A stretch of DNA of 52,271 nt from a virus, in IMG/VR virus record IMGVR_UViG_3300047586_000105, positions 1 through 52,271 of that record. The stretch is one strand, 5' to 3'. The translations under genes were made by a program, and so were the position numbers. A model generated the notes under the pieces. The model was not told the origin of the DNA, searched no databases, and saw only the letters and a program-made list of their open reading frames with translations. This document shows, in pieces, positions 17,362 to 49,204 of the stretch; the stretch's first letter is position 1; every line of letters starts with the position of its first letter.

Positions 17362-18693
17362 TTAGTAGTCGGGGATGCCCGTGTAGTCGCCGCTCGTCAC
17401 GTCGACGGAGATGCCCGTGAGGGCACCGTTCGCGCCGCGGTTCGTGCAGAACGTCTGCATGTACTCCGCGACGAACGCTTCCTTGCCGTCGAAGTCACCG
17501 ATCCGCTGCCACTGGTTGCCGTCCTCGGTCCAGAAGTCTGCCGGACCCCCGAGGTCAACGCGCTGCAACCCTTCCTTCCACAGCGTCATCGCGATGTTGT
17601 GGTAGAAGAAGCCGTCCCCCACGAGCGGCATCCCGTTCACCGTGACGCCCGTGTACCCACCCTTCAGGTCCCCACCCGTGTACGCCTGCTGCTGATAGCC
17701 CATGAGACTCCGGGCGATCTGCGCGACGCAGGCAGGGAAGGTGAGGAGGACGTCCGTCGCCGGGGTCACGTCGAAGCCGCGCTTCTGGCCGAGCTGCAGC
17801 CAGTGCTCGGTGAGTTCGAGATGGTCGAAGGTGACCGACGCCTTGCGGTAGGGCTTGTGCCGCGGATAGGTCGCCTCGACGATGTTGAACACGGTCGAGA
17901 CCGCCGCCGCCGGGTCCACGATGACGCCGAGCCCGTTCGGCCCCGCGTTCCGCTCCAACTCGAAGTAGTCCGCGGTGATGTCCGTTGTGGTGGCGAAGTA
18001 CACGAGGTCGTCGGCAACCACTGCCGGCGTGCCCGACTCCGTCTCCCAGCTCGCGACCATCGTGATCTGACGGGTCGAGTAGACGATGGAGAGGACCTTC
18101 CCGGCCCCACCGACGACCGACGTGCTGACGTCGTACCAGCCTATGACCGACCCCTCGGAGATGTTCGAGAGGGGGTTCGTGCTCGTGTTCCCGTAGGCGT
18201 CCTTGATGGTGAAGACGGTGCTGGACGTGCGGGCGTCGACCTTCCCCAGGAGACAGGAAGACGACCCGATGGAATGGCGAATCTCCATCGACTTCCACGA
18301 GTCCCAGAGGATGTCGAACAGCCGCGTGCCGAAGTCCTGGAACGCGCCGGGGCCGCTGGCCTGCTTCTCGACCAGACTGTCGGCCGCGATGCGCCGATAG
18401 CGCCGGATGGGGGTGATGCGACCCTGGATGGGGTCGAGGCCCACATGGTCCGGCAGGCTCCCGAGGGTCGCCATGCCGCCCGTCGCGAACCGATAGTCGG
18501 CCGCGAAGACCATGTGCTGTCCTTCGAGCCGGTACTCGCCCGGCCCGTTGCCCTGCGCCGCCTGCTGGAACAGCGTGGCGGTGGGCGACTCCCGACGGAC
18601 GTTGGGCAGCACTCGTCCGACGAAGATGTCGTGCGTCAGCCCCGTGAGGGCGGTCATCGCCTCCACGGTGGCGTGCTGTGAACCGTATGCCAT
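17362..18693 (-). CDS. Major capsid protein
   Basis: 443 residues. Order (portal, scaffold, this gene) and sequence features fit a major capsid subunit: N-terminal helix LTHDIFVGRVLPNVRRESPT, a mid-domain with many beta strands, and the C-terminal segment (YTGGDLKGGYTGVTVNGMPLVGDGFFYHN, QWQRIGDFDGKEAFVAEYMQTFCTNRGANG) that resembles coat proteins of podovirus-like phages. It would polymerise into the procapsid around the scaffold. An HK97-type fold is expected but not shown. Strong ribosome site (AGGAGTAGG) before ATG 18693. Confidence 0.82.
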   Translation of the reverse strand: MAYGSQHATVEAMTALTGLTHDIFVGRVLPNVRRESPTATLFQQAAQGNGPGEYRLEGQHMVFAADYRFATGGMATLGSLPDHVGLDPIQGRITPIRRYRRIAADSLVEKQASGPGAFQDFGTRLFDILWDSWKSMEIRHSIGSSSCLLGKVDARTSSTVFTIKDAYGNTSTNPLSNISEGSVIGWYDVSTSVVGGAGKVLSIVYSTRQITMVASWETESGTPAVVADDLVYFATTTDITADYFELERNAGPNGLGVIVDPAAAVSTVFNIVEATYPRHKPYRKASVTFDHLELTEHWLQLGQKRGFDVTPATDVLLTFPACVAQIARSLMGYQQQAYTGGDLKGGYTGVTVNGMPLVGDGFFYHNIAMTLWKEGLQRVDLGGPADFWTEDGNQWQRIGDFDGKEAFVAEYMQTFCTNRGANGALTGISVDVTSGDYTGIPDY

Positions 18694-24251: not shown

Positions 24252-26015
24252 TCAGACTCTCCCTCGGTGGGCGAACTGGCGCCGGATGCGCCGCTCCTCG
24301 GCCTGTGCGTGCTTGGCGTGCGCGGCAAGGCGTTTTTCCAAACCCGTATCACGATTTCGGTCTACCTTCTGCGTCTTGGGCGCCAGATGGGCGCGGTCGG
24401 GCGAGCGGGGACGCACCCAGTTCCCGTAGGCCACGGCATCGGCCTTGTCGGGGGAACGTCCAACGCGGGAGCGGATGTGCTCCTTGAGCGCTAGCGTGAT
24501 CTTGCCGCCCGGCTCCTCGTACTCGATGGCCGTCAGTTCCTCGAAGAGTCGCTGGTCCTTCGGCAGGCCGATGCGGTTGAGGCGCAGGTCCTCGCGGAGC
24601 CGCCAGAAGACTTGGGAGCGGACATTCGCGTAGCGTTCGGCCTCGGGCACGACGGGGCCGGCAGGGCGGAGCGCGCCCTCTTCGTCCTTCCTCGTCTGGC
24701 TCCACTGGCCCTCGATGTCGATGGCGGGCACCGCGCGCTCGCCGCCTGAGATGCGGCGGACGCGCACCCCGAGCCGCACGAGTTCATTGACGGTGCTCGC
24801 TCCGACCCCTACCGAGTCGATGCCCACGTTCCGGGGACTGATGGGCGCGTCGGGGTTCGTCATCTCCCGGTGCACGATGCGCCCCACCTCGGAGGCGTCG
24901 GCGGCGACGAGGTACTCGACTTCCGTGCACACCGCGCCCTGCCAGCGCGAGACGGCGCTCTTGTCCCCCGTCGGGGAGTCGGCCACGTCCACGCCGAGCG
25001 AGAGGGGTCCGTCACGCAACTTCTCGTCGCCCCACCGACCCGCTGCCGATTCGCACCAGTCCCACCGGATGAGTGCCCTCTTCGACTGCGTGGGTGCGAT
25101 ACCCCGGACACGGGAGAGGTAGATGGGGTCGTCCTGGTTCCCCCCGGCGTCCGCGAGGCGGCGCGCGATGCTCTCCGGCGTGACGGCACCGGGAATGATG
25201 TCGCGCCCCGTCACGACGTTCGGGTGGTCGAGTGCGGAGATGCGGACCGCCTTGACCCACGGGCGCGCAGCGAAGAGGCCGAGCGTGTCGTAGCGGTGGT
25301 CCGGGTTGCCCATCCCGAGGATTGGGTTGAAGCGCCCCGTCGCCGTGTTGATGATGGTGTTCACGAGCGCCGTATCGACGCCCGGCATCTCCTCGACGAG
25401 CCACAGCATACTCGGATGGTGGAAACCCGCGAGGCGCTGGGCCACATCCTCCTGTGCTCCGACGCCAGCCGCGAACGCCGTGGCGGCCCACACCTCTTGG
25501 TCGCCCTGCCCGTCCATCATCCGCAACTTGCCGGTGAGGAGCGCCGCGTTCGGGAAGTGGCGCTTGAATCTTGGATACAGGCGGCCGATTTCTTTCCAGA
25601 GGTTGAGGAGGAGCTGCTCTTGCTTCGGCGCGATGCTGAGGACGATGGAGTTCGTGTGAGTAGCGAGGAACCACAGTGCCCCGCAGGCACCGAGTCCGTA
25701 CGTCTTCCCCGTGTTCGTCCCCGAACTGACGGCGACGCTCCGACCCTCGGCGAGTTCGTTCAGCACGAGCGGGATGGGGTCGATGTCACCATCCCATTCG
25801 TGTGTCGCGTAGCCTTCGTTCAGCGACCACCGGAGCGTGTTCTCCGGCACCCCGAGGTACTCGACGATCCATTCGAGCGGGCGTTTCTGGTATGCCGTGT
25901 GGGCCACCGCGCCCGACGTCCACAGTCCCGCCCGCTTGCGCCGCTCGACCTCGGCCTCGGCCTTGGCGCGGGCGAGTTCGAGTTCGGCGGGCGAGGCGGC
26001 GCCGGGGATGCTCAC
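24252..26015 (-). CDS. terL: Terminase large subunit
   Basis: 587 residues from GTG at 26015, overlapping the upstream stop (GTGA). ATPase motifs: Walker A SSGTNTGKT at about 97-105, Walker B LWLVEE at 204-209. The nuclease domain has GVDVADSPTGD at about 341-351, NVGIDSVGVGAS further on, and the final KADAVAYGNW. It translocates DNA through the portal and cuts it. The length and motif spacing are complete. The small subunit is not adjacent but about 5.6 kb away at 31646-32386. Confidence 0.93.
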   Translation of the reverse strand: MSIPGAASPAELELARAKAEAEVERRKRAGLWTSGAVAHTAYQKRPLEWIVEYLGVPENTLRWSLNEGYATHEWDGDIDPIPLVLNELAEGRSVAVSSGTNTGKTYGLGACGALWFLATHTNSIVLSIAPKQEQLLLNLWKEIGRLYPRFKRHFPNAALLTGKLRMMDGQGDQEVWAATAFAAGVGAQEDVAQRLAGFHHPSMLWLVEEMPGVDTALVNTIINTATGRFNPILGMGNPDHRYDTLGLFAARPWVKAVRISALDHPNVVTGRDIIPGAVTPESIARRLADAGGNQDDPIYLSRVRGIAPTQSKRALIRWDWCESAAGRWGDEKLRDGPLSLGVDVADSPTGDKSAVSRWQGAVCTEVEYLVAADASEVGRIVHREMTNPDAPISPRNVGIDSVGVGASTVNELVRLGVRVRRISGGERAVPAIDIEGQWSQTRKDEEGALRPAGPVVPEAERYANVRSQVFWRLREDLRLNRIGLPKDQRLFEELTAIEYEEPGGKITLALKEHIRSRVGRSPDKADAVAYGNWVRPRSPDRAHLAPKTQKVDRNRDTGLEKRLAAHAKHAQAEERRIRRQFAHRGRV

Positions 26016-26218
26016 CCGACGAGCGCGAGGTGGTGATGGCCTGCAGGTTGCGCCGCGAGAACGCGCTGCTGGCACGCCTCACAGGTGGTCGGTGCCCAAG
26101 TGCCGTCCCAGTCGTGTTGCACGATGGTCGTGGTGCACGGCGTGTTCGTCGCGGGGTCGAGGACCACCTCACAGGTGGCGAAGCGCCACGACGCCGGGAT
26201 GTCGCGGATAGCAGTCAC
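26012..26218 (-). CDS. Small cysteine-containing protein
   Basis: 68 residues from GTG at 26218 (GTGA overlap with the upstream stop). Cysteines occur at TCEV, TPCT and CEAC, so a zinc-ribbon-like fold is possible. Segment HDWDGTWAPTTCEACQQRVL resembles short phage zinc-ribbon proteins. Function unknown. Translationally coupled on both sides. Confidence 0.6.
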   Translation of the reverse strand: MTAIRDIPASWRFATCEVVLDPATNTPCTTTIVQHDWDGTWAPTTCEACQQRVLAAQPAGHHHLALVG

Positions 26219-27273: not shown

Positions 27274-27301
27274 CGTGCCCTCCTGTGAGTCATCCTACGA
27301 A

Positions 27302-27668
27302 TGGAGCCGAGGGGAATCGAACCCCTGTGCAACGCGCAGTTCCGGCGTCGAGCTACGAGCGTTCCCGAGTTCAAGTCCCGGGCAGACTGGGAGCGACCGA
27401 CTTCATCACTCCTCCACCAGCGCGGTTTGTCGGGGCTGCGCGGCCCGTATAACCGCGGCGCTTGGGTTCTCACGGTGCGCCGCAACCGTGGCGTTCACGG
27501 CTGCCTAAGCAGCCATCGCGACCGGCCGCTCATACTGCGGAGCGACCCGACCTCGGAACGCGAGCACCTTGCCCGAAGGCTTGGCATTTGAAGCGTGGGC
27601 CGCATAGGCGCGTGCCCATCTCCGCTCGCCCTTCCCCTTCACTGCCGCTGTCGAAACCTGTCGGCCCC
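27302..27668 (-). ncRNA. ssrA: tmRNA (ssrA), complete one-piece form
   Basis: On the minus strand the 5' GGGGCCG (27668-27662) pairs with the 3' CGGCTCC (27309-27303), giving a 7-bp acceptor stem with discriminator A at 27302; CCA is not encoded. The 3' end has a T-arm AGGGG-TTCGATT-CCCCT. The 5' side has the conserved GGTTTCGAC. The tag frame ends YERPVAMAA with stop TAG at 27507-27505, followed by a GGCTGC/GCAGCC hairpin. Two resume codons are possible: GCC at nt 84 (26-residue tag beginning AKPSGK) or GCT at nt 126 (12 residues, APQYERPVAMAA). It tags stalled polypeptides and frees ribosomes. Confidence 0.88.
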
Positions 27669-27697: not shown

Positions 27698-27726
27698 ACA
27701 GTATGCCGACACCCTCGCGCCATCAA
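27698..27726 (-). promoter_or_regulatory. Possible tmRNA promoter
   Basis: Minus strand TTGATG (27726-27721), 17-base spacer, TACTGT (27703-27698). The -35 matches four of six and the -10 three of six. A GTCGC/GCGAC hairpin (27678-27691) lies between it and the mature 5' end. Weak by sequence, but the spacing and location fit. Confidence 0.3.
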
Positions 27727-28340
27727 GTACCCGTCACCTTGGCGCGACGTCCACGCTCCTCGGTGATGCGGTTGAGGCACTCGGCGTAACCCGCCATGTC
27801 GGTCCGATTGTCGCGCTTCGGCTGATAGGTCTCGCGGGACACCTTGAGGAGCACCATACAGAGTGCCACCTGTTCGGCGGTCACGGGTATCCCGAGGACG
27901 CCAGACCACATGACTCCCGTGCGACTGAAGTCATCGAGTGGGTGCCCGTAGGTTGCCCCGCGATCGCCGTAGACGAGTCGCCGGGCTTCCTCCAGTACCG
28001 TCTCGTGCTTCGGGATAATGAGGTCGAGTGTGTCGGCATCGAGGACCGGGATGCCACATTGCTCGGCGACATACACCTCCAGCCGCGCGCCCACGCTGTC
28101 CCGCCAGCCGGGAAGCACGGCCACGGCGTCCGACCGGCAGACCTCCGGTAGGTCGAGCGCCATGTAGTAGGCCGTCGGCTTCACGGCGTCCGTGGCAGGA
28201 TTGAAGCCCTCGGACTCGTCGCGTTCGGCGGGCGACCAGACGTCGTGCCCGAGGTCGCGGAGCCGCCGTGCAGCCGCGTGGAAGGCGGGGAACCCAAAGT
28301 CGGGCAATCCCCGCATCTTCCCCGATAGGTAGACGCGCAT
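27723..28340 (-). CDS. DUF4406 plus DUF6378 fusion protein
   Basis: 205 residues from ATG at 28340 (TGATG overlap). Residues 1-110: MRVYLSGKMRGLPDFGFPAF and a VWSPAERD segment match DUF4406, related to nucleoside 2-deoxyribosyltransferases. Residues 120-205: ETVLEEARRLVYGDRGATYGHP, DDFSRTG, EQVALCMVLLKVSRETYQPKRDNRTDMAGYAECL match DUF6378. The catalytic role on nucleotides is plausible from the fold but unproven. Ends 55 bases before the tmRNA. Confidence 0.8.
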   Translation of the reverse strand: MRVYLSGKMRGLPDFGFPAFHAAARRLRDLGHDVWSPAERDESEGFNPATDAVKPTAYYMALDLPEVCRSDAVAVLPGWRDSVGARLEVYVAEQCGIPVLDADTLDLIIPKHETVLEEARRLVYGDRGATYGHPLDDFSRTGVMWSGVLGIPVTAEQVALCMVLLKVSRETYQPKRDNRTDMAGYAECLNRITEERGRRAKVTGT

Positions 28341-28495
28341 CAGGTCAGTCCTTCCAGTCCAGCGAGGCGCCGGAGTTCTGTGCGGGCGGCGACGAGTTCG
28401 GCGAAGACAATCGCTTTCTCGGTGCGACGCCACTCCTCTTCAGCCAACAGGAGAGTTACCACGGCGTGGAGCAACTCCCGGTCGGACTCACTCAT
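28340..28495 (-). CDS. Small helical phage protein
   Basis: 51 residues from ATG at 28495 behind GGAGAA. Sequence is a charged amphipathic helix pair (ELLHAVVTLLLAEEEWR, EKAIVFAELVAARTELRRL). It overlaps the previous gene by 8 bases and the next by TGATG. Function unknown. Confidence 0.55.
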   Translation of the reverse strand: MSESDRELLHAVVTLLLAEEEWRRTEKAIVFAELVAARTELRRLAGLEGLT

Positions 28496-29221: not shown

Positions 29222-30310
29222 TCACGCCGTGTCCTCGGTGAACGTCTGGCCGCGTGGAGTCAGGAACGCTCCCGGGCGCGCGTGCTCCCAGAGCCCTGGT
29301 CGGTAGTCCTTGCCGTCGCGGCGCGCGAAGAGTGCCCACTTGAACGGCGACGCCACCGCCCGCAGGGCGAAGTCCTTCCGCGTGTGGCCGGTTGGCAGGT
29401 CGGCTACGGTCGCAGCGTAGGTGCGCTCAATCTCCGCAGCGCCATCCTCCACGGTTGCCAAGAGTCGCGCCGCAACAGCACGCGTCCACTCGTGAAACTC
29501 GTCGGGGAGTGGGGCGATCAACTCGGCGATGGGCTTCCCGTTCTTCAGATGCTCCCAGACGGTGCGCTCGTTGAGGCCAGTCACGAGGCGATGCAGCGCG
29601 ACGTAGTCCTCCTGCTTGAGTTTCACACGCTCGTCCGTCGAGAGAACATGTACGACCAGCCCCTCCGCATTACGACGAACCGGAGCGGTAAGCGCGGCGG
29701 TGAGCGTCGGATAGTCGAAGCGCGCCGCGCGGGGTCCGGGCCAGTTTGCCACGTCCTCACCTGGGATGCTCCGCCCTGTGGCGATACTCACGCCCGCAAG
29801 CAAGAACAGGTCGTCGGTCGCCCCGTAGTCCACGACGATGCGATTGCTCGGGTAGACGATCTCGAAAAGGAGCGTGAGGCCAGCCGGAGGCGCGTAGTCG
29901 GAGTACCGCTCCGCCCAAAGCGCGGTGGCGTGTAGGGCCTGTTCCCCCGCAAAGGAGCCGCGCGTGGCGATGGCGTGCCCGTCCGGTATCGGGTAGAGAA
30001 TCCCCAGGCTGCCGTCGAGCTTGTCGGTGACGGACGCGGGGGAGTCGAGGTCGAGTTGCGCCCCGCCGGACTGGCCGTAGTTGAAGAACTTGCGGAAGGG
30101 TCGCGCCACAACCTCGCGCGTGTCCGTCCGGTAGATGAGGCCACGGCACTGGCGCGTCACGGCGTTCCAGGCGCCGTTCTCGTACTGGCACCGCTCGGTG
30201 TAGTTGAGGATCGCCAACGGCAGAGTCGGGTGCTCGCGCCGCACCACGAACCGCTCCTCAAGCATCCGCTCCAAAAGGACCGCGTCGAGCACATCGTCGA
30301 GGGTGCTCAC
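29222..30310 (-). CDS. RNA ligase, T4 Rnl1 family
   Basis: 362 residues from GTG at 30310 behind AGGGGAGCC. Nucleotidyltransferase motifs are in order: motif I TDKLDGS with Lys97 as the adenylated residue, CRGLIY just before it, motif III-like LLFEIVYPSNRIVVDY with Glu150, motif IV EGLVVH, motif V RVKLKQEDYV. It joins RNA 3'-OH and 5'-phosphate ends using ATP. Such phage ligases usually repair tRNAs cut by host defence. No polynucleotide kinase is nearby. It lies about 1.5 kb upstream of the tmRNA in the same direction. Confidence 0.88.
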   Translation of the reverse strand: MSTLDDVLDAVLLERMLEERFVVRREHPTLPLAILNYTERCQYENGAWNAVTRQCRGLIYRTDTREVVARPFRKFFNYGQSGGAQLDLDSPASVTDKLDGSLGILYPIPDGHAIATRGSFAGEQALHATALWAERYSDYAPPAGLTLLFEIVYPSNRIVVDYGATDDLFLLAGVSIATGRSIPGEDVANWPGPRAARFDYPTLTAALTAPVRRNAEGLVVHVLSTDERVKLKQEDYVALHRLVTGLNERTVWEHLKNGKPIAELIAPLPDEFHEWTRAVAARLLATVEDGAAEIERTYAATVADLPTGHTRKDFALRAVASPFKWALFARRDGKDYRPGLWEHARPGAFLTPRGQTFTEDTA

Positions 30311-31645: not shown

Positions 31646-32386
31646 TTACGGCTTCTCCCCTTCCTTACTAGAGGGCGTTCCGGGATCTGCTGGGCCTGCC
31701 GGCAGCGCCCGTACCTTCTCCGACGCCAGGACGGCTAGCGGATGCTCGCCGGCCGCAATCCGTGCGAGCTGGTCATCCCGGAGCCGGGAGTAGTCAATCA
31801 TCGCCAAGCCGCCGCGGACGTTTAGCGTCTGCTGGTCGCTCCACCCCATGTTCTTTAGGGCGAAGATCGAGCCGGTTGGCCGGTCCCGGTCTAGTCGGCG
31901 CTCGTAGTCGGCTTCAACGGCCAGCCTCGCGCGTTTTACGGCGTCACTAAACTCGGGGCGCTCGCCATACCGTTCAAAGCTCTCTCGACTGCTGAGTCCG
32001 AGGGTCAGGATAAGGCCGGTGAGGGTAACGGGTTCCTTGTCTCGTGAGCGCTGTTCGAGGTAGGCGGCTACCCTGATGTCCAGTTCCTCGGGTGTTTCGA
32101 TGATGCGGGGCCGTCCTCCGGCGTGCTTGGGCTTGGTATCGGTGCCCGGTCCCGGCTCCGCCGGCACCCCGGCCCCCGGCCCGGCCCCGGTGCCCGGTGC
32201 CGTCTCTACCGCTCTCCCTGCTGTTATCCCGTTACCGTGAGGCGTGGTGTTCGTGGGATCGGTTGCGGTTGGCGGCGGGGGCGCGCTGGGGTTCGCTGGC
32301 TTGCGGGGCTTCCGGGTGCGGCGCTTCGGCTGCGGCGCGTGCGATGCGCTGGCGTCGAGGGTCGGAGGCGTGGTGTCGTCGTTCAT
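31646..32386 (-). CDS. terS: Terminase small subunit (P22 gp3-like)
   Basis: 246 residues from ATG at 32386 after GGGAG. The first 90 are Pro/Thr/Lys-rich and disordered. The core begins GRPRIIETPEELDIRVAAYL, continues VTLTGLILTLGLSSRESFERY and ends GSIFALKNMGWSDQQTLN, the typical layout of gp3-like DNA-packaging proteins, which bind the packaging site and hand DNA to the large subunit. It is separated from terL by about 5.6 kb, which is not usual. Confidence 0.82.
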   Translation of the reverse strand: MNDDTTPPTLDASASHAPQPKRRTRKPRKPANPSAPPPPTATDPTNTTPHGNGITAGRAVETAPGTGAGPGAGVPAEPGPGTDTKPKHAGGRPRIIETPEELDIRVAAYLEQRSRDKEPVTLTGLILTLGLSSRESFERYGERPEFSDAVKRARLAVEADYERRLDRDRPTGSIFALKNMGWSDQQTLNVRGGLAMIDYSRLRDDQLARIAAGEHPLAVLASEKVRALPAGPADPGTPSSKEGEKP

Positions 32387-32574
32387 CACTCCCGAATCTA
32401 GCCGAGGTCGGAATCCCGGCAAGGTGGCGTCATACCGTCCGCTGTTACATTCCTGTTACATAGAATGGTCACGGCGTCACAATGTGCCCTTGTTGTGCTC
32501 TGGCCCGCTCCCTACGTTGTCGCTTGTCTGACACGGTGCCGGAAGACCGGCACCACACCCCAACCGGAGTCCAT
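32387..32574. promoter_or_regulatory. Divergent control region
   Basis: Lies between leftward terS and the rightward operon. GTTACAT occurs at 32444-32450 and 32455-32461, an 11-bp (one helical turn) direct repeat, followed by TAGAAT at 32461-32466. No convincing -35 is found. Possible regulator site for both directions. Confidence 0.4.
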
Positions 32575-44144: not shown

Positions 44145-44563
44145 GCGCTCCTCGTTTCCACGGCCTTGAGTGCGGCACGGCAGATGGCGAGTGGGGCCGT
44201 GTCAACGTCGTCACTCATCACGAATACGCCACCGCCGAGTTGCTCCGAGACCAGGGCGCTATACTTGCCATTGAGGCGCTTCGTGACGCCGCCCATCAGT
44301 CGCCCGGATGACGTGATCTTCTCGACCACCTCCCACGCGGCGGCGATGTCCGTGGAGTAGGGCCGGAGAACGGTGTTCTTTGCTACGCCGTCTAAGTGTC
44401 CGGTTATGCCGCCGTCCGAGCGCCGCCAACCAGCTAGGAACCCGTCCGGCGATTCGAGATACTCTCCGGGTTCGCCCATCCACTTGGTCAACCACCGATA
44501 ACCCATCACCTTCTCGGCGATGAGGGCGTCCAGCTCCCGGCCAGCGGGGAGATCGTCGCTCAT
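44141..44563 (-). CDS. Phage ABA-sandwich domain protein
   Basis: 140 residues, ATG at 44563, overlapping the integrase stop by ATGA. GRELDALIAEKVMGY, then YSTDIAAAWEVVEKI and APLAICRAALKAVE match the phage ABA sandwich domain family. Function unknown, but it is widespread in phage accessory regions. Confidence 0.75.
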   Translation of the reverse strand: MSDDLPAGRELDALIAEKVMGYRWLTKWMGEPGEYLESPDGFLAGWRRSDGGITGHLDGVAKNTVLRPYSTDIAAAWEVVEKITSSGRLMGGVTKRLNGKYSALVSEQLGGGVFVMSDDVDTAPLAICRAALKAVETRSA

Positions 44564-45651
44564 GCTGTCCTCGTTTCCACGGCCAAGTCCACCAGCCCGA
44601 GCGGACGACCGATGTAGGCGACCAGTTTCTTGCGGTCCTCAGCGATGACCGACAGCGGCAGCGCGTTCGTCCCCAACTCCCGCGTCGTGGTGCGTTCGTT
44701 GAGGTAGAGGTCGTGCACCTCGGTCGGCACGGCGTGGCCGCAGTACATCTTGACCCGGAACCTCGGGATGCCGGCGTCCTCGGCCCACTGGATGTAGGTG
44801 CGCCGGAAGGTGTGGGGCGTCACGGCGAGGTCGGGGAAGGCCCGAGCGAGCGCCGCCCGGAAACTCTTGGCCGCGTGCTCCGGCTTCGTCAGGGCGCAGA
44901 GGTAGGGCAGCACGCGATCACTGGCGCTCCGCTTCACGCCGAAGACCCGGGTGATGCCGACCTCCGCGTCCTGTCGCCAGCCATCCTCGGTGAACTCCTT
45001 CCACCGCATCCCCGAGGTCACGAGCGACCACGCCGTCCGGGCGTAGCGCGTGGGCAGCAGGATCACGCCGTCCCGGAACTCCTTCACCGTGAGGCCCGGC
45101 TTGTCGGGTCGCGTGTAGGGCATCGCCGGCACCTTGCGGAGCGCGTTCCACAGCGGGGACTCCACCTCGCCCAAAGCCCAGGTGGCGAAGGACATCAGCA
45201 CCCGCTTGTGTCGGTTGAACGTCACCGCAGCCCCCCGGCGCTCGTAGCGCGACTTGAGCGAACGGAGGAGGTCCGGCAGGTCGGAGAGCCGGGCACCCTG
45301 CCGAGCGACCGCCTCGACCTGCGTGATGGCGAGTTGGATGTCCTTCCGGTACGCCTCGGACTTGGGGTAGACCGTCGCGAAGTCCCGCAGTTTCGGCAGG
45401 AGTGGAGCGGAGGTCCGGGTGTCCCGCGCCACGAGGTCATTCAGTGTCCCGGTGGAGACGGCGTTGTAGACCTGGAGCGGGCTCACCTGTCGGTCGTAGA
45501 GTCGCTGCAGGACATCAATGCGCCCCCGCTGGACACACATCCGGACGGCGGCCCGGACATCCTGCACGAGTTTGGGGTCACTCGTGCCGACGTGCCGATG
45601 GATGCGGCCCACGCCGGGGATGACGATGTCGAGCGAGGGAGTGCCGGTCAC
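44560..45651 (-). CDS. int: Tyrosine-recombinase integrase
   Basis: 363 residues. Catalytic set: Arg216 in SGMRWKEF, possible Lys240 in GVKRSASDR, His280 and Arg283 in TPHTFRRTYIQW, His306 in YCGH, nucleophile Tyr316 in VHDLYLNE. The N-terminal 180 residues are an arm/core-binding helical part. It integrates phage DNA at the tRNA-Met 3' half whose copy lies about 2.4 kb downstream at 42164-42208. Start GTG or ATG 45651 overlaps the Xis-like gene by ATGA. Confidence 0.88.
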   Translation of the reverse strand: MTGTPSLDIVIPGVGRIHRHVGTSDPKLVQDVRAAVRMCVQRGRIDVLQRLYDRQVSPLQVYNAVSTGTLNDLVARDTRTSAPLLPKLRDFATVYPKSEAYRKDIQLAITQVEAVARQGARLSDLPDLLRSLKSRYERRGAAVTFNRHKRVLMSFATWALGEVESPLWNALRKVPAMPYTRPDKPGLTVKEFRDGVILLPTRYARTAWSLVTSGMRWKEFTEDGWRQDAEVGITRVFGVKRSASDRVLPYLCALTKPEHAAKSFRAALARAFPDLAVTPHTFRRTYIQWAEDAGIPRFRVKMYCGHAVPTEVHDLYLNERTTTRELGTNALPLSVIAEDRKKLVAYIGRPLGLVDLAVETRTA

Positions 45652-47452: not shown

Positions 47453-48381
47453 TTGGCCCCCTTGCGTAGGAAGACGGCGAACTTCTCGTAGGGTTCGCCC
47501 TGCCGCTCATACTGCGTTGGATCGATGCCGTGGGCGATGAGCGCCGCCTTGTCGATGCTGCGCCGCCCCGGCTCCGTGACGTACTGGATCGTGGCCGTGG
47601 GCAGTCGGAAGGACCCCTTCGCGGGCAGGGAGTCCTTGAGGGCGTCCTTGGCCATCGTGAACGCGGAGTTGGCTTCGTCCACGACCTTCTTGGCCTCGGC
47701 GTAGATAGCGAGTGCCGCCACGATGACCGCGTCGTCGATGACCTTGGTCTCGCCGACCGGGGTGACGTTCACCTGCGGGGCGTCCACGAGTGGCGGGGGC
47801 ACGCGCGGCAGGATGTGGTTCTGGTAGAACTTGACCGCGAGGTCGAGCAGCGCGGCGTAGAGGGCGGGGTCGAACGCGACGTCAAACGTCATCAAATCCC
47901 ATCCCTCACGGGAGAAGACGGCGTACGATCCCCACGTGAACCCGCCGAGGCCGAGGTACCATTGGAGTTGGGCGATGTGGCCGGGGAACAGGCCCTCGTT
48001 CCGCACCATGTCGAAGGCGTGGGCGCCGTGGGTCTTGATCTCCAGCAGCCCCGTCTCCGGGTGATCCTCGGCGTCCACCTTCCGGTCCGGGGTGCCCATG
48101 AGGAACGGGTAGTCGGGATGGAGGAGCACCTTGGTCTTGTACACCGTGCGCCCCGTCCGCTTGGCGTACATCCGAGCCACGATGGGTTCGAGGGTGCGAC
48201 CCGCCACCATCACGGGCGTCTCCTCCACCGCCGGCGCGAGGCCCGCCTTCTCGTTGTAAACCGAGAGGTTCGAGCGGTAGCGGTCGAGTCCCGCGATGGC
48301 GGCGACATCGGTGCCGCCGAGTTTCGTCTGGCGCATCGCCAGCCAGTCCCGACGGCGCATCGGCTTCACGGCGGCGGTCAC
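47449..48381 (-). CDS. YqaJ/lambda-exonuclease family nuclease
   Basis: 310 residues. Residues 15-60 (LAMRQTKLGGTDVAAIAGL, YRSNLSVYNEKAGL) and motif TPDRKVD...LLEIKTHGA with acidic and Lys residues, plus HIAQLQWYLGLGG, match the YqaJ viral recombinase/lambda-type 5'-3' exonuclease fold. With RecT it forms an Exo-SSAP recombination pair. ATG 48381 overlaps the upstream stop as ATGA. Confidence 0.85.
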   Translation of the reverse strand: MTAAVKPMRRRDWLAMRQTKLGGTDVAAIAGLDRYRSNLSVYNEKAGLAPAVEETPVMVAGRTLEPIVARMYAKRTGRTVYKTKVLLHPDYPFLMGTPDRKVDAEDHPETGLLEIKTHGAHAFDMVRNEGLFPGHIAQLQWYLGLGGFTWGSYAVFSREGWDLMTFDVAFDPALYAALLDLAVKFYQNHILPRVPPPLVDAPQVNVTPVGETKVIDDAVIVAALAIYAEAKKVVDEANSAFTMAKDALKDSLPAKGSFRLPTATIQYVTEPGRRSIDKAALIAHGIDPTQYERQGEPYEKFAVFLRKGAK

Positions 48382-48956
48382 TTGGGCGTCTCCTTGCCAT
48401 CGGCGAGGCGCGCGAGGCCCTTCTCTCGCCAGATGCGTTCGATTTCCTCGGCGGATGCTCGCTTGAAGTCAATGCCGCAAGCCGCGCATTGCATCTCGCC
48501 GTCGTCGCCGTAGAGCGTGGCGATGACGCAGCCATGCCGCAGCCAGAGCAACTTGCGAAGCGTGGCTGTCTCCCGGTCGAGCGGGGCACCAGCGGAGGCC
48601 GCGTCGCGGAGTCTCCAAATGATGCGGCGCAGTTCGTAGTAGCCCGTTTCGGCCGCATCCTGCCCACGCTCTCGGGCTGTCCTCGCGTCCGTGGCCTCAC
48701 AGATGGCGACTGCCTCGGTTATGGCCGCCGTGCTTGGCGTCGGGGGCGGCGAGGGAACGCGCAAAGCGGCGTTCCATGCCTCGGCTGCCGACTCGGCGTC
48801 ATACCACGTCGAGTGGACGTTGCCGATGCATCCCTCTGTGTCGCATCCGATGCTAACGGCCTTCCCGTTACCACCGAATAGGGTCGCCTCCTGTCCGCAG
48901 AACGGACACGGCGCCAACTGCTCCCGCGCGGTCGGGTCAGGCGCGAGGCTGCTCAC
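48378..48956 (-). CDS. Lar-like zinc-ribbon protein with C-terminal domain
   Basis: 192 residues from GTG at 48956 (GTGA overlap). The N-terminus CPFCGQEATLFGGNG, then IGCDTEGCIG...AAEAWNAAL is like Lar (restriction-alleviation) zinc ribbons. The rest is helical, with a second CAACGIDF pair near the C-terminus. Anti-restriction is one possibility, unproven. Confidence 0.62.
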   Translation of the reverse strand: MSSLAPDPTAREQLAPCPFCGQEATLFGGNGKAVSIGCDTEGCIGNVHSTWYDAESAAEAWNAALRVPSPPPTPSTAAITEAVAICEATDARTARERGQDAAETGYYELRRIIWRLRDAASAGAPLDRETATLRKLLWLRHGCVIATLYGDDGEMQCAACGIDFKRASAEEIERIWREKGLARLADGKETPK

Positions 48957-49204
48957 GGCATCACCTCGCGGATACGGGTGCAGTAAAGCCAGTAGGAGCA
49001 ACCCGTGTCGTCGTTCCGCACCTTCACGCGGTCGGAACTCTGCTCCTCGACGATGACGTGACGGAGGTGCTGAGCGTGTTCGTACGTCACCGCCCGATCC
49101 GGCTGGAGCGCGGCCCGCAGCGCCCTCTCAAACCGTACTACCGCAGCGCACTTGGCGAGGTAGGCGGCGATTGCTTCTCGGTCTCGAGGTTCGGTGTTAG
49201 TCAT
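48953..49204 (-). CDS. Hypothetical phage protein
   Basis: 83 residues from ATG at 49204. YLAKCAAVVRFERALRAALQ, YEHAQHLRHVIVEEQSSDRV and CSYWLYCTRI. No recognised domain. Confidence 0.52.
   Translation of the reverse strand: MTNTEPRDREAIAAYLAKCAAVVRFERALRAALQPDRAVTYEHAQHLRHVIVEEQSSDRVKVRNDDTGCSYWLYCTRIREVMP

Follow-up and report, generated by a model that had tools for sequence, protein, structure and literature searches.

The window, a stretch of 52,271 bases (67% G+C, no terminal repeats) that makes up one IMG/VR virus record, raises the question of whether a phage carries a tmRNA of its own and, if so, what kind of tag this RNA would add to proteins. The window belongs to a virus of soil bacteria, which can be recognized as a tailed phage from its head protein, its tail spike, RecE/RecT and a replication-initiation-like gene. 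The only RNA gene that ARAGORN found is a one-piece tmRNA of 367 nt at positions 27302 to 27668 on the minus strand, with the tag at nt 84 to 164 of the RNA (window position = 27669 − i for RNA nt i); there is no tRNA gene. The Rfam model RF00023 matched positions 27299 to 27668 of the same strand over its full length with 47.2 bits (E = 1.2e-15), barely above its gathering score of 47 bits. A full-length homologue in a Gemmatimonadaceae prophage, described below, scored 90.7 bits, and the borderline score of the window tmRNA is due to the divergence of the RNA. In 200 Markov sequences with the length and dinucleotide make-up of the window, ARAGORN called no tmRNA. The window tmRNA is real, though borderline by the RF00023 model. 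The original prediction of a complete phage-borne tmRNA, which did not give the strand and named covariance-model and ARAGORN searches as its check, is borne out by both (by RF00023 only just), by the random sequences and by the anatomy of the RNA. We put at about 80% the probability that this gene encodes a functional, one-piece tmRNA of a phage-specific lineage, in a phage that probably infects Gemmatimonadaceae.

The RNA, all of whose elements lie on the minus strand, contains a tRNA-like domain. Its 7-bp acceptor stem is formed by the 5′ strand GGGGCCG (27662 to 27668) and the 3′ strand CGGCUCC (27303 to 27309), which is followed by the discriminator A; G3 lies opposite U364, the alanine identity pair. 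The homologue has the stem GGGGGCG/CGCCUCC. CCA is not encoded in the window tmRNA, the 3′ end of which reads CUCCA-UUCG, so that a host enzyme would have to add it. The domain also contains the conserved D-loop-like motif GGUUUCGAC (27650 to 27658), of the form GG..UUCGAC, and the T-arm AGGGG-GUUCGAU-CCCCU (27310 to 27326). These elements and a tag frame ending in YERPVAMAA and TAG had all been noted before and were all found in the sequence. The tRNA-like and mRNA-like parts are linked by the long helix P2. In its outer part the 5′ strand CAGCG (27646 to 27650) pairs with CGUUG (27330 to 27334), and in its inner part GCGAGCG (27623 to 27629) pairs with CGCUCGU (27355 to 27361) through 7 bp that are invariant in the homologue. 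Relative to the homologue, compensatory changes occur at three pairs of the outer P2 helix, two of the T-arm and one of a hairpin. A P5-like hairpin, GGCUGC-UUAG-GCAGCC (27499 to 27514), was placed by the Rfam alignment and by comparison with the homologue, and its loop holds the stop codon of the tag. Short stems compatible with PK1 are present at nt 52 to 76, and the Rfam alignment is poor across the pseudoknot regions (PK1 and PK2 to PK4).

The homologue came from the only one of 59 Gemmatimonadaceae genomes (G020) that carries two tmRNAs. The first of these is of the host type, with the tag ANDNLALAA. The second (C5:218949-219316, or L305:9750-10115) lies on a contig of 528 kb within an integrated prophage, which has bacterial genes on its left, and is surrounded by genes for a DNA methyltransferase, TerS, a lambda-like TerL (phrog_15) and a portal protein, about 2 kb upstream of the terminase genes. 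The prophage and window tmRNAs are homologous over their full length and approximately 60% identical, and the prophage stretch and the window have no recognizable proteins in common. In a tree the two RNAs group together with a support of 0.96, Gemmatimonadaceae ssrA falling outside the pair, and the window tmRNA is approximately 47% diverged from the host genes. A model of this two-member lineage gives 304 to 306 bits for both members, which are its training set, and 46 bits or less for any other tmRNA examined. In a scan of 395 Gemmatimonadota genomes, it scored high only at the known prophage (304 bits; next, 45 bits). No member turned up near relatives of the window's RNA ligase or, among the 17 best loci, of its DUF4406-DUF6378 gene, nor near relatives of the prophage TerL. 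We propose a phage tmRNA lineage distinct from the host's own, with two known members and defined by full-length homology and a common tag pattern, AKxS..VLxFR......RP..MAA, both of which are found in each member. In both phages the tmRNA lies near the packaging genes. Since the tag persists in a second virus of that host group with which the window otherwise shows no relationship, the window tmRNA appears to be a gene that phages have retained rather than a stray one.

The searches also returned matches of other kinds. RF00023 matched stretches of 70 to 90 nt in other viral records, two of them above the cutoff, and at those checked ARAGORN calls tRNAs or nothing. Five Gemmatimonadota genomes (G090, G095, G182, G227, and G243) have tmRNA matches of approximately 255 nt in which the first 150 positions of the model are missing; these are possibly a clade with a rearranged or two-piece tmRNA.

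The length of the tag had been left ambiguous in the original prediction, and the two candidate resume codons are as noted there: a codon at nt 84, giving 26 residues, and one at nt 126, giving 12. From the GCC at nt 84 the frame reads AKPSGKVLAFRGRVAPQYERPVAMAA and a TAG stop codon (27505 to 27585), and it ends in VAMAA. The nucleotide that fixes the resume codon, and with it the frame, in Escherichia coli is the A at −4, A86 (PMC2481249). The corresponding A is found at nt 80 of the window tmRNA (27589), and nt 84 is alone among the in-frame Ala codons of the window tmRNA in having it, although ARAGORN may itself favor such an A. The equivalent codon of the homologue also has an A at −4, and from there the homologue encodes AKDSNVLEFRPKAERQSLRPALMAA. 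Between the two tag frames, 14 of the 26 aligned codons (stop counted) have the same meaning, 8 of them through synonymous change, and the sole indel is of 3 nt, in frame and one whole codon long. Random placement of the 32 nucleotide differences yields a mean of 8.3 identities (p ~ 0.001; n = 2 sequences). This is suggestive, but not conclusive, of selection keeping the tag as a protein, since a test with two members has low power.

Initiation of the tag at the GCT at nt 126 (27541 to 27543) would also give an active tmRNA, with the 12-residue tag APQYERPVAMAA. This is the commonest length in the viral sample described below, and the GCT is preceded by GUC, as in E. coli. However, the nucleotide at −4 is a G, the homologue encodes Glu (GAG) at the equivalent position, and nt 126 lies approximately 50 nt from any PK1-like element, compared with 11 nt in E. 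coli (PMC2481249). Moreover, the codons upstream of nt 126 are themselves conserved, identity in that stretch alone exceeding random placement with p ~ 0.03 (n = 2 sequences). The short tag is therefore very improbable, and the 26-residue tag from nt 84 is much the better reading because of the A at −4, the Glu codon of the homologue and the codon conservation. The ambiguity now appears settled in favor of the longer tag.

A tag of 26 residues is approximately three times as long as those of the probable hosts. All 54 distinct Gemmatimonadota tmRNAs of the host type have tags of 9 residues, ending in LAA in 50 cases and in MAA, as AMAA, in 4; an AMAA end, as in the phage tag, therefore also occurs in the host group. 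The apparent novelty of the window tag is its 16 to 17 extra residues and its AK start, not its AMAA end. The net charge is +4 for the window tag and +2 for that of the homologue, compared with 0 or −1 for host tags. The claim that the tag is unusual is supported. Long tags are uncommon in viral tmRNAs, though this one is not the sole example: of 48 distinct one-piece tmRNAs in a pattern-biased sample from IMG/VR, most have tags of 9 to 15 residues, and 10 have tags of 18 to 33 as called by ARAGORN, some of which calls may be wrong.

Three viral tmRNAs with long tags are worth recording individually. Two were found by a pattern scan for long tags ending in MAA, and both represent other lineages. 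L363 (G416:C1:6457-6867, minus strand; IMGVR_UViG_3300049488_000018) has a basic tag of 28 residues, AKNTVVKAVKAVASFGVADTFVAVRMAA, which resembles the window tag in being long, in its AK start (AKNTVV) and in its MAA end (RMAA). L364 (G415:C1:89105-89495, plus strand; IMGVR_UViG_3300031576_000004, 163 kb) has a tag of 21 residues, ANSNVINGSFGSRAGVVAMAA, likewise long and with an MAA end (VVAMAA). Both fall outside the tree group of the window tmRNA, and the likeness of their tags to that of the window is limited to the ends. The third, at L180:2015-2382 on the minus strand, encodes an acidic 23-residue tag, ADSYSCDWDAEFAALLEEEGCLI, without the usual AA end.

The tmRNA gene lies between the genes for TerS (31646 to 32422; phrog_606, E = 2.8e-16) and TerL (24252 to 26075; phrog_2, E = 1.9e-17), both on the same minus strand. 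Alongside it are a gene directly upstream for a DUF4406 (deoxyribosyltransferase-like) domain fused to DUF6378 (27723 to 28433, minus strand), and, 1.5 kb upstream, a gene for a T4 Rnl1-like RNA ligase (29222 to 30310, minus strand; phrog_562, E = 3.3e-64; Pfam RNA_lig_T4_1), together with small unknown genes. The shared strand of the tmRNA, TerS, TerL and RNA ligase makes a late accessory operon plausible; no promoter or terminator match was found near the tmRNA gene. The RNA ligase and the tmRNA stand in one gene run, and ligases of the same family occur in tmRNA-bearing Streptomyces phages; this co-occurrence hints at a pairing of RNA repair with ribosome rescue. Elsewhere in the window, beside the RecE/RecT genes, positions 48378 to 49001 (minus strand) encode a 207-residue protein with a Lar-like restriction alleviation domain on its N-terminal side.

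The major head protein (17362 to 18693, minus strand; phrog_14242) served as a probe for related phages and for the probable host group. It is 78% identical to its counterpart in IMGVR_UViG_3300036760_000681 and 65 to 67% identical in another IMG/VR contig. The larger of these two contigs (67 kb), that of the nearest relative phage, has many structural genes in common with the window and no tmRNA by ARAGORN or by the lineage model, so the tmRNA is dispensable. TerL has no close relatives in the viral contigs, and when either a 20-kb part of the window or the tmRNA was compared with 50,697 phage records at the DNA level, only short matches appeared, mostly to the T-arm. The only genome that the head protein matched in the GTDB scan is the Gemmatimonadaceae MAG P6-2, in which two contigs of a related phage carry head pieces that are 61 to 65% identical. 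As these contigs are possibly misbinned, the host is probable and not proven; together with the prophage homologue, they indicate that the phage probably infects Gemmatimonadaceae.

In such a host, we infer that the RNA would be expressed, that the host would charge it with alanine and that host SmpB would carry it. No SmpB gene was found in the window, and both host genomes tested encode one. Where broken mRNA has stalled a ribosome, the charged tmRNA would enter it, and translation would switch to the GCC at nt 84, so that the Ala from the tRNA part and the 26-residue tag would be added. Release would follow at TAG, and the tagged product would be proteolyzed via its C-terminal end. The phage tag retains the host-type end (AMAA or LMAA), read by ClpXP-type proteases, with a longer basic segment replacing the short AN(N/D)N start of the host tag. 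The likely gain for the phage would be the recycling of ribosomes during infection.

The gene could also be a mere passenger, a host ssrA taken up by an ssrA-integrating phage, kept by accident and now decaying. Phages are known to use ssrA as an attachment site (PMC3029335), and the window encodes an integrase-like protein (44560 to 45651), albeit a weakly supported one. However, the gene is complete and lies midcontig between TerS and TerL, away from an attachment site; tag, helices and tRNA-like domain are retained despite the divergence from the host genes, and the tmRNA is common to phages without common proteins. Accidental uptake is consequently quite unlikely. Nor is the RNA at all likely to be a decoy that binds SmpB or ribosomes and blocks host trans-translation instead of performing rescue. 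Such a role has been suggested for the RNA of mycobacteriophage DS6A, which amounts to hardly more than a tRNA-like domain, and tmRNA can be inhibited by RNAs of that sort (PMC4131195); the phage encoding no SmpB would also suit such a role. A decoy needs no tag, yet here the tag frame, the stop hairpin and the degron end are all conserved.

A functional phage tmRNA thus remains the preferred reading, and it can be extended: the long tag may have a job other than proteolysis, or its basic insert may re-route products to another protease or adaptor. The insert pattern is conserved and the AN(N/D)N start of the host is absent. The corresponding stretch of the E. coli tag is a binding site for the adaptor SspB. 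The degron-like end is nevertheless retained, and the insert is moderately conserved on the basis of two sequences, which leaves this extension doubtful. It is an equally tentative thought that unrelated Gemmatimonadota phages share a dedicated tmRNA that marks stalled proteins during infection with a long basic tag and so changes their handling, through another adaptor, protease or fate, the rescue step being kept.

tmRNAs are found in 402 of 18,146 phage genomes, or approximately 2% (PMC9004378), and phages with ssrA were listed in 2014 (PMC4131195); no work on those of Gemmatimonadota phages was found in the open-access papers searched. The chromosomal ssrA of Gemmatimonadaceae is one-piece, like that of the window, and some host tags end in AMAA, whereas the host tag type, ANNNLALAA, has 9 residues of the form AN..LALAA and not 26. 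Mycobacteriophages Bxz1 and its relatives, as well as Wildcat, resemble the window phage in being tailed phages with a complete tmRNA, which in Wildcat is very highly expressed (PMC7474061), but these are different phages of different hosts, and in phage records their tmRNAs have no sequence match to that of the window past the T-arm. Like the window phage, the Streptomyces phages Faust, TunaTartare and their relatives each carry a tmRNA together with an RNA ligase, which belongs to the family of the window ligase; unlike in the window, their tmRNAs have tags of 11 to 13 residues and lie inside tRNA arrays. What phages gain from tmRNAs is an open question, and here it is the tag, not the RNA alone, that appears to be kept by selection. 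This tag differs strongly from the host tag and occurs in unrelated phages of a single host group, which argues that phages need a tag of their own. Phage tmRNAs and other long phage tags were known already; what appears to be new is a tmRNA lineage specific to phages, whose long, basic and conserved tag has a host-like C-terminal degron.
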